64,000 nt of DNA from Oceanibacterium hippocampi. GTDB taxonomy: Bacteria; Pseudomonadota; Alphaproteobacteria; Sneathiellales; Sneathiellaceae. This document shows positions 42,368 to 52,691 of the stretch, piece after piece. The position numbers and the translations under genes were made by a program. Below the pieces are notes generated by a model, which saw only the letters and a list, made by a program, of their open reading frames with translations, was not told the origin of the DNA and searched no databases. The stretch lies in contig NZ_FWFR01000001.1 of NCBI RefSeq assembly GCF_900172325.1, positions 1,178,001 through 1,242,000 on the forward strand, read 5' to 3'. Each line of letters opens with the position of its first letter. The stretch's first letter is position 1.

Positions 42368-42850
42368 TCAGGCCCGGTCGAGGCCGCGCGGCACGGTCAG
42401 TCCGGCCAGCAGGCGCGAGACGAAGGGGAATTCGCGGCCGCGCTCGATCTCCGCATACTCGGTCTCGATCGGCCCGACCCGCTGGCGGCGGATCGCGCCT
42501 TCCGCCGCGGTTGCCGCCTCGACGCTGCCGCCTTCGGCCAGATGCAGCGCCAGTTCGAGGCAGGCCTCGCGAACCTGCACCGGCACGCCGGATAGCAGCC
42601 GTCCCTCGGTGTCGAAGGCGCCGGTGCGCGGCCATTTGAGCGCCTGGGTCGGCACCGCGACACAGCCGACGAAGGCGTAGCGGCCGTCGATATAGCGGGT
42701 CGCGCGGCGAAGCGCCAGCTCGCGCAGCTCCTCGGCGGCGGCCGCCCAGGCGCTGTTGCCGAGCTCGTCGTGATACTGGCTCGCCTCGGCGGTGGCGACA
42801 TAGCTGTTGGCGGTCGCGAGGCCGGTGCCGTCTTCGGCGACGAAACTCAT
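42368..42850 (-). CDS. DnaT-like phage adaptor protein
   Basis: The product has 160 residues. It starts MSFVAEDGTGLATANSYVA and contains RATRYIDGRY and LKWPRTGAFD, features of the putative DnaT-like family found next to coat genes, which in practice are head-tail adaptors. Confidence 0.72.
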   Translation of the reverse strand: MSFVAEDGTGLATANSYVATAEASQYHDELGNSAWAAAAEELRELALRRATRYIDGRYAFVGCVAVPTQALKWPRTGAFDTEGRLLSGVPVQVREACLELALHLAEGGSVEAATAAEGAIRRQRVGPIETEYAEIERGREFPFVSRLLAGLTVPRGLDRA

Positions 42851-46031: not shown

Positions 46032-47150
46032 TTACCCGAGCACGCGGACGGCGAGGCGCGGATCCTGGCAACGGGCGCCGGCCAGCAGGTCGAGCGAGAC
46101 GACGTCCGACTTGGCGTCCTTGTCGTAGTCGTAGACGACGCGGATACCGAGGCCGCGGAAGTTGACGTATTCCGCCATGCCGGCGCCCTTCGGCAGCGAC
46201 AGGGGGACCACCGCCAGCATGAAGGCGTTCCGGTGGAAGGCGAGATTGGCGACATGGCTGGCGACCAGGCTGACCGAGGTGCCATGGTCGAGCGCCGGCA
46301 GCGCCGGGCTCATCGCGACACTGCTCCAGGCGCCGCTGCTGGCGGTCTTGTCGGCGGTGACCACGAAGCTGCCCTCGATGCCGTCGAAGCTCAGCAGGTC
46401 GCCCGCCTTGAGCGTCTGGCTGCCCGAACCGCCGTCGATATCGAGACTGGTCGCGCCGGCGGTGACCGCGCCGTTCACGGCGAGCGAGCCGGCGGCGGTG
46501 CCGCTCGCGTGGCTCTTCACGTTCTGGCTCATGAAATGGTCGAAGCCCATGAAGCGGCCCATCGAGGCGTCGCGGAGCGCCGAACCCTGGTCGCCACGCT
46601 TGTCCGCCTCGGCGAAGCTCGGGATCTGGAACATCGCTTCCTTGCCAGCCGGGTCGAGGACCAGCGCCCGGTTGGACAGCGGCACCCGGGCCTCGTTCAG
46701 GCGGCGGTCGATGGCGGCGAGGTCGGCGAGCGAGGCCGGCGGGCTGCCGGCGCTGCCGATGACCGCATGGGTCTCGACATACTTGGAGGCGACATAGGCG
46801 TCGACCGCCTCGGCGATGGCGAGGATCGCCGGCTGCAGGAGCTGGCCGGAGAAATCGGCGATGGAAAGCGACATTTCCCGGTCGGAGACCTTGAAGGAGA
46901 CGTCGAAATGCTTCTCCAGGGTCACCGGGACGGAACTTTCGGTGGCGTCCTGGATGGTCAGCGTGGCGCCGTCATACTCATCGGCGACGAAGGTCGCGGG
47001 GCCGCGCACGGTGATCGTGTCGCCGACCCGGGCGCCGGTGAAATCGTCCTGGTGGCCGCGGAACACGAGGTTGCCGAAGACCATGTTGGATTCCAGCAGC
47101 ATCAGCGCCTCGCGGGCGATGATCGAGGGGGAAAGGATCGAATTGGGCAT
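46032..47150 (-). CDS. Major capsid protein, P22 coat-like
   Basis: The product has 372 residues. The N-terminus PNSILSPSIIAREALMLLESNMV is the start of P22 gp5-type coats, followed by EKHFDVSFKVSDREMSLSIADFSGQLLQPAI. The I-domain and HK97 core would follow. It is preceded by the scaffold gene, the standard order. Confidence 0.8.
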   Translation of the reverse strand: MPNSILSPSIIAREALMLLESNMVFGNLVFRGHQDDFTGARVGDTITVRGPATFVADEYDGATLTIQDATESSVPVTLEKHFDVSFKVSDREMSLSIADFSGQLLQPAILAIAEAVDAYVASKYVETHAVIGSAGSPPASLADLAAIDRRLNEARVPLSNRALVLDPAGKEAMFQIPSFAEADKRGDQGSALRDASMGRFMGFDHFMSQNVKSHASGTAAGSLAVNGAVTAGATSLDIDGGSGSQTLKAGDLLSFDGIEGSFVVTADKTASSGAWSSVAMSPALPALDHGTSVSLVASHVANLAFHRNAFMLAVVPLSLPKGAGMAEYVNFRGLGIRVVYDYDKDAKSDVVSLDLLAGARCQDPRLAVRVLG

Positions 47151-47841: not shown

Positions 47842-48891
47842 TCAGCGGCGCGCGGCAGGGGCCGCGTCCGGGTCGGGCCGCCCGATGAGGGCGCTTTCCT
47901 CGTCGTGGCCGCGTTCGACCGGGACCAGTTCGTAGCGCTGGAAAAGTTCATGCCGGGTGCGGGAGGATATCGCTCCGGCGCTCCAGGCGTCGACGATCGC
48001 CCGGATCACGTCGGCCGAGGCGGCGCTGTCGACGAAGTCGAGGTTGGGGCGATAGCTGACCGCTTCCGGATCGGCGCCGATCCAGCGCGCGGCGTGGCGC
48101 AGCGCCTGTTCGATCCCGGCGGCAACGGTGCGGGCAATCGAGATCAGGGTCGCCGACTGGGCGGCATGGCGGAGCCGGAGCGCCTCGCCGGATTCCGCCG
48201 CCGCGTGATCGAGCAGCTGGGCGCCTGCCTGCATGGCGCGGGCGAAATCGTCCTCCTGTGCCTGGCGCTGGGCGGCGAGGCCGCTGCCCGAGACCTCGAG
48301 GAACTTGGCGTCGGCGCCCTGCGGCAGGTGCCAGATGGTCGAGGCGCCGATCGCCCGCGGCGCGTTCGGGTCGTCGCCGGCGACACCGACGACCACCGGG
48401 GTTGCCTGGCTGGTCATGAACAGCGACTGCTCGTAGTCGGCCGAACGGCGATAGAGCGAGAGCGCGGTCTGGGCGAGGCCGAGCAGCGGCACCTCGTCCG
48501 GGTCGGCGGTCAGGTCGCGGGCGCCGACAAAGACGAACGGCGCCTCGGTGAGCGCCCTGCCGCCACCGCTCAGCGGCAGTGGCGGCCCGGCCGGGACCGG
48601 CGGCGCATCCGGGCTCGGCCGGGTCCAGGTCTCGACGGCGACGCCGTCCGCCTGCCAGATCACCCGCCAGCGTTCGCTGCGCCGGGTCTCGAAGGGGTCG
48701 GCCGGATCGCGCCGGGTCTCGCCCTCGTCGAGGACCAGCATGTCGAGCGCGGTCGTGCCGTTCTCGCGTCGCTCGTGCCAGTTGATGATCGCCTCCGCCT
48801 TGACGACGTCCTCGCCGGCCATGCAGTCGCGCATCAGCCGCCATTTCGGGGCCGTGGCGAGATAGCGGTCGGCCTTGCTGTCTACGGGCAT
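47842..48891 (-). CDS. Portal protein (DUF4055 family), internally shortened
   Basis: The product has 349 residues. It starts APKWRLMRDCMAGEDVV, as the DUF4055 portals do, but then joins at residues 31-34 directly to EAIINWHERRENG, which in full-length members of about 450-480 residues lies some 100 or more residues later. The missing part normally carries the clip and wing region (YLPRP..., RTVxGLVGxIFR). The reading frame is kept. The rest (LPQGADAKFLEVSG, AAGIEQALRHAARWIG) is normal. A dodecamer with a wrong wing would not package DNA well. Confidence 0.75.
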   Translation of the reverse strand: MPVDSKADRYLATAPKWRLMRDCMAGEDVVKAEAIINWHERRENGTTALDMLVLDEGETRRDPADPFETRRSERWRVIWQADGVAVETWTRPSPDAPPVPAGPPLPLSGGGRALTEAPFVFVGARDLTADPDEVPLLGLAQTALSLYRRSADYEQSLFMTSQATPVVVGVAGDDPNAPRAIGASTIWHLPQGADAKFLEVSGSGLAAQRQAQEDDFARAMQAGAQLLDHAAAESGEALRLRHAAQSATLISIARTVAAGIEQALRHAARWIGADPEAVSYRPNLDFVDSAASADVIRAIVDAWSAGAISSRTRHELFQRYELVPVERGHDEESALIGRPDPDAAPAARR

Positions 48892-48912: not shown

Positions 48913-50262
48913 TTAATAGAGGCCCACGATCGGACCCTGGGCGGCCTGGGTCGCATCCACGAGCGTGGCGAAGGCGCCGGCCGCGGCGTCGACCTGGTCG
49001 TCATGGCCGAGCGGAAAGCTTTCCAGCTCGGTCAGCAGCGCCTCGTTCCAGGTGCCGCGGACGAGGGCGACGTTGCCGGCCTCGCACTGGGCCGAGAAGG
49101 GCGCGGCGCGGGCGAGCTTGGTGCCCTGTTCCGGCGCGATCCGAAGGACGTGGCCGGCGAGCAGCCGGGCGAAGGCGCGGGCCTGGGCCTTGCCCGCCTG
49201 GCCCGGGTCCTGGGGCAGCGACACGGTGACGGCGGGGCCGTCGGCCTGCGCGGTATTGCGGATCGCCTGCTCGACCTGGCCGGGGGTGCCGCGGAAGCGC
49301 TCGATATGCTCGACGAAGAAGCGGCCGTCGGCGCTCCGCGCCATGCGGCAGCCGACCGTCCAGTCCGGGTCCCGGCCTTCGCTGGCCAGCGTCGCGGCAA
49401 GATCCCAGTGGCGACAGCGCCGGGCCTCCGCCGGGGCGGCGTCGACGATCGGGAAATAGCCGCGCCGGAAATAATGTCCGCCGGCCGGCCGGACCTTCCA
49501 GTTGCCGCCGAGCAGGCGCTCGCGCTCCACAAGGTCGAGCGCGTTCAGGTTGGCGAGATAGCCCGGATCGGCGGCGAGCAGCACCGGATTGTCATGCACT
49601 GAGGCGGGGATGAAGGTGAGCGACTTCGGCTGACTGTCCGCATGCGCTGCCTTCAACCGTTCCCGGTCGTCGTCGAAGATCAGGTCGCGGCCAGAGCGGA
49701 TCAGCCAGCGCAACCGGCCGGCCCGCTCGGCGATCGGCCGCCCGCTCCGCTGGTCGATCCACCAGTCGATCAGGCGCGCCACCCAGCTGTCGGCGTCCGG
49801 ATTGCAGGTCGCCCGCACATAGGGGCGGACGCCGCAGGTCGAGCGGTTGCGCGAAAGCATGTAGAAGAACTGACTCTCGCTGAAATGGGTCAGCTCGTCG
49901 AAGCCGATCAGCGGCACCTGGGCGCCCTGCCAGTCGTACTTGCTGCGCTCGTGCTCGAGATGGGCGAAGCCGATCCTCGTGCCGGCCGGGAAGATCCATT
50001 CGAGCTGGCTTTCGCGCGGCCGTCCGCCGAGCGCGGCATAGAGCGTCGCCGCCTCGTCCCAGAGCCCGCCCTCGTTCCGGACCTGCTTGGCGTTGCGCCG
50101 GAAGATCACCGCGCCGAAACCCTTGCGCGCGATATGGCGGAGCGGCTCGAGGAGCAGGGCGAAGCTCTTGCCGCCGCCCGCGGCGCCGCCGTAGATCGCG
50201 ATATCCGCCGGCGAGGAGAGGAAGGCTTCCTGCGGTCCGGGCAGGGCCCTAATCGCGCTCAT
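48913..50262 (-). CDS. terL: Terminase large subunit
   Basis: The product has 449 residues. The Walker A variant IYGGAAGGGKS is at 23-33 and the Walker B region is IGFDELTH. Motif III and the RNase H-like nuclease aspartates (HWDLAATLAS, GHDDQVDA) are in the C-terminal part. It translocates DNA into the procapsid and cuts it. It overlaps terS by 14 bases. Confidence 0.92.
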   Translation of the reverse strand: MSAIRALPGPQEAFLSSPADIAIYGGAAGGGKSFALLLEPLRHIARKGFGAVIFRRNAKQVRNEGGLWDEAATLYAALGGRPRESQLEWIFPAGTRIGFAHLEHERSKYDWQGAQVPLIGFDELTHFSESQFFYMLSRNRSTCGVRPYVRATCNPDADSWVARLIDWWIDQRSGRPIAERAGRLRWLIRSGRDLIFDDDRERLKAAHADSQPKSLTFIPASVHDNPVLLAADPGYLANLNALDLVERERLLGGNWKVRPAGGHYFRRGYFPIVDAAPAEARRCRHWDLAATLASEGRDPDWTVGCRMARSADGRFFVEHIERFRGTPGQVEQAIRNTAQADGPAVTVSLPQDPGQAGKAQARAFARLLAGHVLRIAPEQGTKLARAAPFSAQCEAGNVALVRGTWNEALLTELESFPLGHDDQVDAAAGAFATLVDATQAAQGPIVGLY

Positions 50263-50707
50263 TGTCGGGCAGGTAGAGGGTCACGCCGGCATCGCCGGCG
50301 CCGCCCCTGTCGTCGTCATTGGCATCCCCCTGCGCCTGGGTCGCATCGGCGCTGCGCCGGGCGATCAGCCATTTCCGCGTGTCGATGCGCAGTTTGGAGC
50401 GTTGCAGGTGCTCGGTGTTCGGCAGCGCGCCGCCCTTGGCGCCCAGGACATAGTCGTCGCCGCCGTCGTCGGCGATTTCGAGGATCTCGTCGGCGAGCCG
50501 TTCGGCGTCTGCCGCCCGTGCGCGGCGATAGGCGGCGGCGAACTCCGGCTTCTCGGCCAGCCAGCGCCAGATCGTCGAGCGCGCCGGCATCGCCGGATCG
50601 GCGGCAATCCGGCGGAGCGAGATCCCGTCGGCCAGGCGGGCGCAGATCTCGAGCGCGAGCCGACCGTTATAGCGGCCGGACGGGCGGCGCGTCGGTCTGT
50701 CGGTCAT
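50249..50707 (-). CDS. terS: Terminase small subunit, Sf6-like
   Basis: The product has 152 residues. An N-terminal HTH (GRLALEICARLADGISLRRIAAD) and the helical core AAAYRRARAADAERLADEILEIADD are the marks of Sf6-type small terminases. It recognises the pac site. The ATG overlaps the stop of a short leader ORF. Confidence 0.82.
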   Translation of the reverse strand: MTDRPTRRPSGRYNGRLALEICARLADGISLRRIAADPAMPARSTIWRWLAEKPEFAAAYRRARAADAERLADEILEIADDGGDDYVLGAKGGALPNTEHLQRSKLRIDTRKWLIARRSADATQAQGDANDDDRGGAGDAGVTLYLPDNERD

Positions 50708-50778
50708 GGGTGCGGATCACGATTGCCGGTTGCGGGCCGGGTGGTGGGGGCAGGGCTGGAAGCCGTGCGCCGGGCATG

Positions 50779-50811
50779 AAAAAGCCCCGTCTCGACAGCC
50801 TGTCGCGGGGC
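50779..50811 (-). terminator. Intrinsic terminator just after the late promoter
   Basis: On the minus strand GCCCCG pairs with CGGGGC around an inner CGACA/TGTCG stem, followed by TTTTT. It begins about 20 bases downstream of the predicted start of the late promoter and 72 bases before terS. Unaided, it would stop nearly all late transcription. Confidence 0.85.
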
Positions 50812-50837
50812 GGAAGTTTGCATCATAAATTTCAACC

Positions 50838-50866
50838 ATAATGATATACTCTGGCGAAAAAGTCAA
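50838..50866 (-). promoter_or_regulatory. Predicted phage late promoter
   Basis: On the minus strand TTGACT, 17 bases, then CATTAT, a near-consensus sigma-70 promoter. Its -35 box covers the stop codon of the preceding gene. Transcription would start near 50831 and run through the hairpin into terS and the whole virion operon. Confidence 0.7.
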
Positions 50867-51432
50867 GCATTGAATGTGACTTTCGTGCGAAAATGGCGCC
50901 CCAGCGTGTCCAGCCCGAGCAACAGGGCACGGGCCTCGGTCACGTCCGTATTGGTGGGGATCTTGGGAAAGAGCCAGCGGGGGCAATGCTGATAGATCAC
51001 GGTCTCGTCGATGAGGGCCTTGACTTGTCTGCCGGTCGAGACGAGCTCCGCAGCGGCTTCGCGGAATTCGCGCTCGCGCGCTGCCCGCCAGTCGTCCGAG
51101 CTTGTCGGTTCCATGGCCTCGAGCGCGCCTGTCGGGATGCGCCGCGTGCCGCGCTCCAGGCGGTCGAAGGATTGCGCGGCGGTGCTGGCGCGGCCGATGG
51201 CGATGGAGAACAGCCAGGCATAGCGGCACCCGGCCTGATGCTGGGCATCGCTGATCGCGTCGTTGGCCAGCAGGATCCCCAGCGGATAACTGGTCAGGGC
51301 CGGATCGGCGCCCTGCGCAAGCCAGGCGCGCCGGCGCTGGTTCTCTACGGTTCCGCGATCTTCGGCCACAAGTGCGAGCCGGCCGTTGGGTTCGCGCAGA
51401 CCGCTCTTTCGCGGTCGACCTCGTCGTGCCAT
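50863..51432 (-). CDS. Phage protein in Q-like position, candidate late regulator
   Basis: ATG 51432 after GGAGGGG gives 189 residues. The N-terminus MARRGRPRKSGLREPNGR is very basic (AT-hook-like RGRPRK), followed by helices (YAWLFSIAIGRAS, DWRAAREREFREAAAELV). Similar proteins lie near terS in alphaproteobacterial phages. It is the only gene between the switch region and the late promoter, and its stop codon lies inside the -35 box. That is where lambdoid phages place the antiterminator Q. The function is inferred from position only. Confidence 0.65.
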   Translation of the reverse strand: MARRGRPRKSGLREPNGRLALVAEDRGTVENQRRRAWLAQGADPALTSYPLGILLANDAISDAQHQAGCRYAWLFSIAIGRASTAAQSFDRLERGTRRIPTGALEAMEPTSSDDWRAAREREFREAAAELVSTGRQVKALIDETVIYQHCPRWLFPKIPTNTDVTEARALLLGLDTLGRHFRTKVTFNA

Positions 51433-51879
51433 CTCTTCCCCTCCGTTGTAGCGTTCCCCTTCGCCTCTCCCGCTTCCCGATTTTCTTGTTCCCGCCCCAT
51501 TGCCTTCCCGGCCGCCCGGACCGTCCGTTCGACCCCGGCGCCGTTTCGACGAACGGCGCGCCGGGCAGCCGAAAAGACGGTGGGGCGGCGCGCCCGCTCC
51601 ATGGCGGACGTCCGCCCCACCAGTTCGACGGGGAGGCTCGCCCTTCAGCTGCCGGGAGTTCCGGCAGGCTGCGCCGGCGAGGGGCGCAATGCTGTCGTCG
51701 CGATTGACGCTGCCGTTCGGTTCATCCCCCGAGTCCTTGATTCCCGACCAGGCCCGCGGCAGGCGCCGCGGAGCCGTCAGCGACGCCATGCGCTGCCGCC
51801 TCCGGTACCTGGCAGCCGGACGCGCTCGTCCGCGATGGCGGCTCGTTCGGGAAGGGCGTTGATTGTTCGGGGGTGCAGT
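51433..51879. other. Long leader or intergenic region in the switch
   Basis: No gene is supported. The frame of the 189-residue gene stays open back to an ATG at 51789 with GGAGG upstream, but the added 119 residues are low-complexity and basic. A perfect 7-base hairpin (CTGCCGG/CCGGCAG) lies at 51649-51667. If the leftward promoter at 51904-51932 is used, this is a leader of about 465 nt. Confidence 0.45.
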
Positions 51880-51908
51880 TTGACAGCGTGAATATTAGAC
51901 AGCATTAT
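51880..51908 (+). promoter_or_regulatory. Rightward promoter for the repressor gene
   Basis: TTGACA at 51880-51885, 17 bases, CATTAT at 51903-51908. The start would be near 51915, inside the palindromic operator, 78 bases before the repressor ATG. Confidence 0.7.
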
Positions 51909-51932
51909 GCGGACAATACACCTAATTGTCAA
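51904..51932 (-). promoter_or_regulatory. Leftward promoter facing the repressor promoter
   Basis: On the minus strand TTGACA (51927-51932), 17 bases, CATAAT (51904-51909), near consensus. Its -10 overlaps the -10 of the rightward promoter by five bases on the other strand, so the two cannot be open at once. It would drive the 189-residue gene. Confidence 0.68.
51912..51930. promoter_or_regulatory. Palindromic operator in the phage switch
   Basis: GACAAT, seven bases, ATTGTC: perfect six-base arms. It covers the start of the rightward promoter and overlaps the -35 of the leftward one. A bound repressor would block both, giving repression of lytic genes and self-limitation. Confidence 0.65.
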
Positions 51933-51992: not shown

Positions 51993-52691
51993 ATGGATTT
52001 CGACAAGCTGCAGCGATTGATCGAGCAGAAACTCCGTGCCAGCGGCAAGTCGCAGCGCCGGCTGTCCCAGGAGGCGGGGCTGCACCCGGACGCCGTCCGC
52101 AACGTCCTCCGCGGTCGCAAGCCGAGCTATGACCGGCTGGCCCGTATCCTGCGCGCGCTCGATATCGCGGTCGACACGATCGGCGAACCGATCGACCGGC
52201 CGCGCGCCGGGGAGTCAATCCAAAAAACCGAACGAAACCACGATAATACAACCTTAATAAATAATTCCTACCGTGCATTCTCGGCCAGAGGGGATGAATC
52301 CAGTGGTGTACCCGTCAGGGGCATCCAGGACGCGAAGGGCGGCGGACGTTTCATGTCGGAGAGGCAGTCATTCGAGATCGTCAATCGACCATCGCTGCTG
52401 CGCGGCGTCGAGCATTCCTACGCGGTCTATGTCTGTGACGACACCATGGTGCACCGCTTTCTCCCCGGGGAGATCGTTTTCGTCAATCCCTACAAGCCGT
52501 TGACCGATGGCTGCTTCGTGGTCATCCAGATGGCCGGGGAGGGGGCCGCCCGCTACCTGATCAAGCAGTATCTCGGCCGCAGCGGGGATGCCCTTCGCCT
52601 GCGCCAGCTGAGCCCGCTCGAAGACCTCGTCCTGTCGCGCGAGGCGATCGTCGCTGCGCATCGTATCGTGGCGTCCCAGGAGCACTCCTGA
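51993..52691 (+). CDS. Phage repressor, HTH plus S24/LexA-like C-terminal domain
   Basis: The product has 232 residues. A helix-turn-helix of XRE type is at about 18-56 (SQRRLSQEAGLHPDAVRNVL). A linker rich in Asn/Ser/Gly lies at 75-120, and an S24-like domain follows. In the catalytic motif the usual G-D-S-M-E-P is CDDTM, with Thr151 in place of Ser; the partner Lys191 is present (YLIKQYL). Thr may support no or slow self-cleavage, so induction by RecA might be weakened. The AT-rich linker (52216-52270) is unlike the surrounding DNA. Confidence 0.82.
   Translation: MDFDKLQRLIEQKLRASGKSQRRLSQEAGLHPDAVRNVLRGRKPSYDRLARILRALDIAVDTIGEPIDRPRAGESIQKTERNHDNTTLINNSYRAFSARGDESSGVPVRGIQDAKGGGRFMSERQSFEIVNRPSLLRGVEHSYAVYVCDDTMVHRFLPGEIVFVNPYKPLTDGCFVVIQMAGEGAARYLIKQYLGRSGDALRLRQLSPLEDLVLSREAIVAAHRIVASQEHS

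Follow-up and report, generated by a model that had tools for sequence, protein, structure and literature searches.

The window analysed here, a stretch of 64,000 nucleotides from Oceanibacterium hippocampi, contains an apparent prophage of approximately 22 kb (30400-52691), comprising a repressor, the gene for a 189-aa protein, and packaging, head and tail genes (Table 1). Neither an integrase nor a clear replication gene was noticed in this region, which was read by eye, with 18 of its proteins compared to Pfam; one frame amid the head-tail genes (42368-42850) matches DnaT_2. The gene for the 189-aa protein is also present on an IMG/VR contig of 21,993 bp. The repressor and the 189-aa gene are preceded by overlapping divergent promoters, with a GC-rich leader of approximately 465 nt (51433-51897, minus strand) separating the latter gene from its early promoter; an in-frame upstream extension of the 189-aa gene to 51789 exists. 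Relatives of the repressor are likewise divergent from a homologue of the 189-aa protein in 14 loci (L025 and L047 being the same sequence).

Table 1. Features of the prophage region, with positions in the window; fractions are matches to the promoter consensus.
Feature	Position	Strand	Details
P22-type coat protein	46032..47150	-	PF11651, E 2.7e-61
Portal	47842..48891	-	PF13264, phrog_145
terL	48913..50262	-	PF03237, PF17289, phrog_979
terS, first late gene	50249..50707	-	PF20901, E 2.5e-33; phrog_1482
Intrinsic terminator	50779..50811	-	hairpin 50811-50784, T5 50783-50779
-10-like TATGAT, candidate sigma-dependent pause site for loading	50822..50827	-	TATGATGCAAAC 50827-50816
Late promoter TTGACT-17-CATTAT	50838..50866	-	-35 TTGACT 50866-50861, spacer 17, -10 CATTAT 50843-50838
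189-aa putative antiterminator (P0001)	50863..51432	-	ORF; GGAGG shortly 5' of ATG
Divergent promoter TTGACA-17-CATTAT for the repressor, overlapping the early promoter	51880..51908	+	10/12
Early promoter TTGACA-17-CATAAT, into the 189-aa gene	51904..51932	-	11/12
HTH and S24-type repressor, likely master switch	51993..52691	+	PF01381, PF00717, phrog_4

The 189-aa gene, a late promoter, an immediate terminator and terS follow one another in the order that an earlier note on this DNA had claimed. The -35 box of the promoter contains the stop codon (TGA) of the 189-aa gene, and, if transcription starts approximately 7 nt past the -10 box, at ~50831, then the hairpin, with its five Ts, begins at approximately +21, and a -10-like TATGAT hexamer sits at approximately +5 of the initially transcribed region. 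The Q genes of phage 21, lambda and 82 are arranged in the order Q, late promoter, terminator and late genes, with the lambda late terminator at approximately +190; hence the window hairpin is far nearer the start than that of lambda. The promoter sequence is as the note gave it, but its description as near-consensus was generous, because it matches the consensus at 9/12 positions; there are 3 promoter-like sites of that score between 48000 and 54000, compared to 0.4 in shuffled sequences. The hairpin, which has an outer stem of 6 bp, a 3-nt bulge, an inner stem of 5 bp and a loop of 3 nt, was missing from the first motif scan because the rule of that scan allows no bulge. Folded alone it reaches -16.9 kcal/mol (z -3.0), whereas the 63-nt stretch around it has a z of only -1.1 when folded against shuffles. 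The motif scan identified no promoter of at least 9/12 between this hairpin and terS. Therefore, on present evidence, the terS transcript must cross the hairpin.

The 189-aa protein, P0001, matches nothing in Pfam, NCBIfam or PHROGs, but it belongs to a recognisable family. The family has a conserved core of DxGTxExQ...PLGxLLAxxxIxxxQHxAGxxYA, and most members share RGRP...D.GT.E.Q...PLG.LLA...I...QH.AG..YA followed by a C-terminal GL..L. The N-terminus had been called AT-hook-like: this label is weak, as the Pfam AT_hook profile matches 1/28 members (E 0.049), although the G-R of the basic RGRP tail is conserved in the family. Searches with the single sequence found matches in 21/385 sampled genomes of the same class (E<=0.01, the genome of origin included), and those with a profile found members in 20/385 (E<=1e-8), while overlapping scans of IMG/VR yielded 1, 15, 16 and 18 loci. 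With P0001, L040, L069 and L073 as queries, 50,697 phage records contained no closer member than those of the Rhizobium phages described below. Among the members, the only strong PHROG match is phrog_15385 (8/28), which carries no function, and no description of the family was seen among the papers listed by searches of the open-licence PMC literature. Neither P0001 nor the other members match a Q family in Pfam, PHROGs or NCBIfam. A sequence search of the PDB gave five weak matches with the first alignment, headed by de novo 4D2 proteins, and none with the second.

In phage contigs, the family gene occupies the same place as gene Q, after the early genes and before the late genes (L040, where terL is a BLAST hit; L063, L066 and L069, from reading the predicted proteins). 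Frames of 542 aa (L077 8927-10555) and 624 aa (L076 8681-10555) contain HTH-like stretches before a domain of the 189-aa type, as judged by eye. A 1.9 Mb genome has a member (L033 9883-10413) just ahead of what looks, also by eye, like a VirB3/VirB4-type secretion operon. The antiterminator of phiLM21, annotated as NusG-like, stands at a similar place.

Another reading of the protein is that it partners the small terminase or serves in packaging, its place being due to chance, and in one group of loci (L043-L049) the member does overlap a gene of ~77-92 aa just before terL. We regard this as extremely improbable. The window has a separate terS, as do L040 and L069 (reading of predicted proteins), and both the HTH-like fusions in L076/L077 and the divergent repressors fit a regulatory role. 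A profile match to a small-terminase partner, which the earlier note had named as counting against its reading, was looked for in Pfam and PHROGs, and none was found. Identification of the 189-aa protein as TerS itself was rejected, as the separate terS matches PF20901, and neither P0001 nor any of the 28 members, when compared to Pfam, matches a TerS family.

Gene, promoter and terminator recur together far more often than chance would give. A unit was defined as TTGAC[AGT] followed 40-75 nt on by the start of a hairpin of at least 6 bp, with 4 Ts in 6, within -40..+900 of the stop codon. Such a unit lies downstream of the family gene in 19/38 non-redundant loci, compared to 0.30 expected in the set, and in 19/30 of the loci counted as phage-borne or GTA-like (the 30 including L026, which has a terminase). 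The rest of the sequence, 1.06 Mb of strand, contained 9 matches, and triplet-block shuffles gave 0.28. The first rule (loop <=17, -40..+750) had found the unit in 13/38 loci, and 8 elsewhere, of which 2 were just out of range (L024 at +848 and L053 at +804); range and loop were then widened once. For this count, 53 loci were reduced to 38 at 88% identity; G171, G355 and G053, of the 21 genomes from the single-sequence search, were outside it, as were L034 and L039, where the family gene is missing from the gene calls, and L035, which has no matching ORF. The terminase genes of these genomes provide a comparison: of 18 terminase places, 12 do not adjoin a member (L090, one of these, has a distant member), and no unit was found within 1 kb upstream of the terminase genes in the 11 without the family (L096 being scanned over 264 nt only), one of which has a unit at -5658.

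The recurrent units consist of TTGAC boxes, a spacer of 16-18 nt, and then a hairpin and T-run shortly before the late genes, in groups that otherwise share little DNA. As in the window, the stop codon of the family gene falls inside TTGAC in L051, L052, L055, L056, L059 and L072, whereas the unit of the L043-L049 group is displaced to the far side of the coupled ~77-92 aa gene, still adjoining terL. Across 7 loci of the latter group, mean pairwise identity is 0.92 in the -35 box, 0.95 in the spacer, 0.79 in the -10 box, 0.89 in the initial transcript and 0.93 in the hairpin, compared to 0.30/0.45 in the upstream flanks, and 0.55 then 0.24 downstream. Hence selection acts on the unit, the spacer included. 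In L041, L042 and L070, the unit is followed at ~0.5-0.7 kb, a gap too short for terL, by a predicted gene that resembles a portal by eye. None of 17 loci checked has a promoter between the hairpin and the next predicted gene. A -10-like element (at least 4/6, with A at position 2) follows 14/17 late promoters, compared to 9.8 in shuffles (aggregate p 0.002, the rows being related).

Small RNA genes likewise consist of a promoter with a terminator directly behind it, such that the unit might encode a regulatory RNA of ~50 nt, with the late genes switched on otherwise. This explanation seems very unlikely, given that the window has no other 9/12 promoter from which terS could be reached, that nothing in Rfam exceeds threshold at the window unit (two matches being far below their gathering scores), and that the stem sequences of the hairpin differ between groups. 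Furthermore, a short RNA is equally the expected by-product of a Q-type switch.

Profile comparison places the family beside a reported antiterminator. The 28-member alignment matched DUF6456 in hhalign with a probability of 92.9 (pairwise E 3.6e-7; 131 columns in order), and the first alignment did so with a probability of 94.7 (E 6.4e-8; 130 columns). The DUF6456 score of 52.4 is far above the controls: none of 100 column shuffles passed 17.1, the reversed profile reached 16.9, and 19 other families from these loci gave no more than 15.7. These DUF6456 sequences came from 10/58 genomes, with Caulobacter vibrioides the only one of 14 named controls to match. GafA is annotated as DUF6456 (PMC9765227), DUF6456 proteins are among the BLAST hits described for it (PMC9638019), and GafZ is reported to resemble the C-terminal domain of GafA (PMC11150451). 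As DUF6456 lies in the C-terminal half of longer frames, it is probably the part that corresponds to GafZ. In Caulobacter crescentus, GafZ is reported to antiterminate for the gene transfer agent, likely with RNAP, NusA, NusG and NusE (PMC11150451). The remote similarity, collinear over ~130 positions of DUF6456 (PF20057), to which GafZ and the C-terminal part of Rhodobacter capsulatus GafA are assigned, suggests the family is distant kin of the GafZ family.

The two systems also resemble one another in their setting. GafZ acts, and the window protein is proposed to act, at a promoter before virion genes, and upstream in both is an HTH-S24 type repressor, which is RogA in the GafZ system (PMC9632790). 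The window repressor has DTM where 12/12 aligned relatives have SM, replacing the catalytic-site Ser with Thr, while the Lys region is kept; the repressor may hence have lost the ability to cleave itself, which is also reported of RogA. In family f102, L032 and L036 pair an S24 repressor with a family member in surroundings where no phage genes were seen, and so resemble rogA-gafYZ, which lies away from its cluster. The two systems also differ. Firstly, PF20057 has no match at E<=1 for P0001, and is not among the families matched by the 28 members. Secondly, GafZ is described as needing an element between -35 and -10 (PMC11150451), whereas the window promoter has no GafZ-type dyad there (p 0.99), nor was the dyad significant in 26 promoters (lowest p ~0.06, in L041 and L062). 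Thirdly, the window gene adjoins its own late promoter, and fourthly, the window terminator is at ~+21, rather than after the first gene. Lastly, no counterpart of GafY was noticed.

Predicted structures were compared as well. AF2 models were obtained for the window protein (pLDDT 81, pTM 0.72) and the L069 member (pLDDT 84, pTM 0.71). Foldseek found nothing in the PDB below E 1 (best E 1.6 and 1.1), and among viral models its best match was an uncharacterised phage protein (E 1.3e-4), with a DUF6456 protein at rank 8 (prob 1.00, E 0.13). Both models were realigned with VIA-align to the 255 and 996 PDB chains ranked highest by Foldseek. Among these, Q21 took the first three rows for both models (Z 5.7-7.0, rmsd 4.5-5.3), the best being 6p1a for the window protein (Z 5.8, 101 residues, 4.5 A) and 6p18 for the L069 member (Z 7.0, 107 residues, 5.2 A); lambda Q was absent from the matches listed. 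According to the notes of VIA-align, best Z values near 14 are common for mostly helical models to which nothing clearly corresponds, so values of 5.8-7.0 alone prove little. Rather, it is the ranking of Q21 first in two diverged members that makes this weak, model-based resemblance worth reporting. Comparison with the Q families gave no profile match, and Q21 as the best PDB match at scores low for helical folds.

Sigma factors came next after Q21 for both models, and AlpA reached Z 4.9 for the window model. A sigma-like HTH is predicted in GafZ too (PMC11150451). The protein might therefore be only an activator of the late promoter, sigma-like or class II, with the hairpin incidental or ending the early transcript, in keeping with the description of GafA as an activator working through the omega subunit (PMC9638019) and with the poor -10 boxes of some late promoters, such as GATTGT. 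We nevertheless consider this unlikely: an activator would not need a hairpin held 40-65 nt from the -35 box despite sequence change, the transcript cut short by the terminator is that of the late promoter itself, and GafZ itself is reported to antiterminate (PMC11150451).

A further comparison is with Q-type antiterminators. Q proteins require a -10-like pause element and a binding element, and the fold of AlpA, of Pseudomonas aeruginosa, is described as resembling Q21 without sequence homology (PMC9371919). With Q21, lambda Q and 82 Q the window locus has in common its gene order and the -10-like element in the initial transcript, but the window family has 2-6% identity to these proteins, and a basic RGRP tail. 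With AlpA it has in common a circuit of repressor, antiterminator, promoter and terminator (PMC9371919); AlpA differs in controlling a lysis operon, and no sequence relation to the window family was seen.

Hence the 189-aa protein is likely, from the computational evidence, to be a Q-like processive antiterminator acting at the late promoter. Starting from the gene order, the conservation of the unit and the homology, all of which can be read in the sequence, we infer the steps of repression, induction, loading, pausing and read-through as follows. In the lysogen, the S24 repressor would keep the divergent early promoter off, and lifting of this repression would allow the 189-aa gene to be expressed from it. 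Unaided by the protein, polymerase starting at the late promoter would run into the hairpin at approximately +21 to +48 and so make only a ~50-nt RNA. The protein would then load at the late promoter, probably while polymerase pauses at TATGAT, by analogy with Q and AlpA (PMC9371919), and would travel with the polymerase past the hairpin and the terminators beyond it, such that terS, terL and the virion genes are transcribed. The earlier proposal that the protein lets polymerase pass the terminator is thus supported, by computation only, through the recurrence of the unit in 19/38 loci and in 0/11 without the family, the kinship to DUF6456, and Q21 as the best PDB match. Its suggestion of a new antitermination family unrelated to known Q held in part, in that there is no Q sequence match, but the family does have known relatives in GafZ/DUF6456 by profile. 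These computations support a new family of the processive-antiterminator kind, distantly related to GafZ and working like Q, and not an unprecedented one.

Not every member has the unit, which was not found in 19/38 loci. Among these are L026, whose terminase lies ~2.7 kb downstream, and 8 chromosomal loci in which no phage genes were seen. Distant members (36.5-39.5% identity to L066, annotated as hypothetical) are carried by seven named Rhizobium phages (RHph_N3_2, Y25, I3_18, N2, I1_23, Y1_10 and RHEph18), where they stand downstream of RusA- and HTH-type early genes, with a terminase annotated downstream in 6/7 within the stretches examined. Against prior prediction, the unit was found in 0/7 of these phages (RHph_I3_18 being scanned over 743 nt after the gene). 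Between the member and the genes that follow it, five of the Rhizobium phage loci (L103-L107) have a non-coding block in common, GAGGCGA...TCGCCTC, with no Rfam match in L103-L106 and no tRNA in L103-L107. A profile was used to choose 14 more genomic loci, and the unit was present in 2 of them (L112 and L114); L113 has a promoter and a hairpin lacking a T-run, L115 a promoter only, and the other 10 nothing. Three of these loci without the unit, in G405, G414 and G415, have terL 0.5-0.7 kb downstream of the member and no intergenic unit. Hence the unit is characteristic of only part of the family.

Some members lie in elements smaller than the window prophage. IMG/VR proviruses of 16-17 kb (L043-L047 and L075) resemble clusters in the genus g39, in which flanking host genes are common to L023, L024 and L027, and partly to L025. 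Both are candidate gene transfer agents or degraded prophages. It is a tentative possibility, and one we hold to be somewhat more doubtful than probable, that this family, GafZ/GafA and Q21/AlpA form one ancient fold family. In that case, the gene transfer agents of alphaproteobacteria would have retained a Q gene from the phage they descend from, and GafZ would sit in the RNA exit channel as a nozzle of the Q21 type.

With profile kinship to the GafZ family and a predicted fold closest to that of Q21, this phage family would account for both the origin and the mechanism of GafZ, joining the control of phage late genes to that of gene transfer agents. It also provides a likely function for proteins now annotated as hypothetical, including phrog_15385 and the genes of the seven named Rhizobium phages, and the promoter-terminator units beside many of its members are compact and suited to direct assay.
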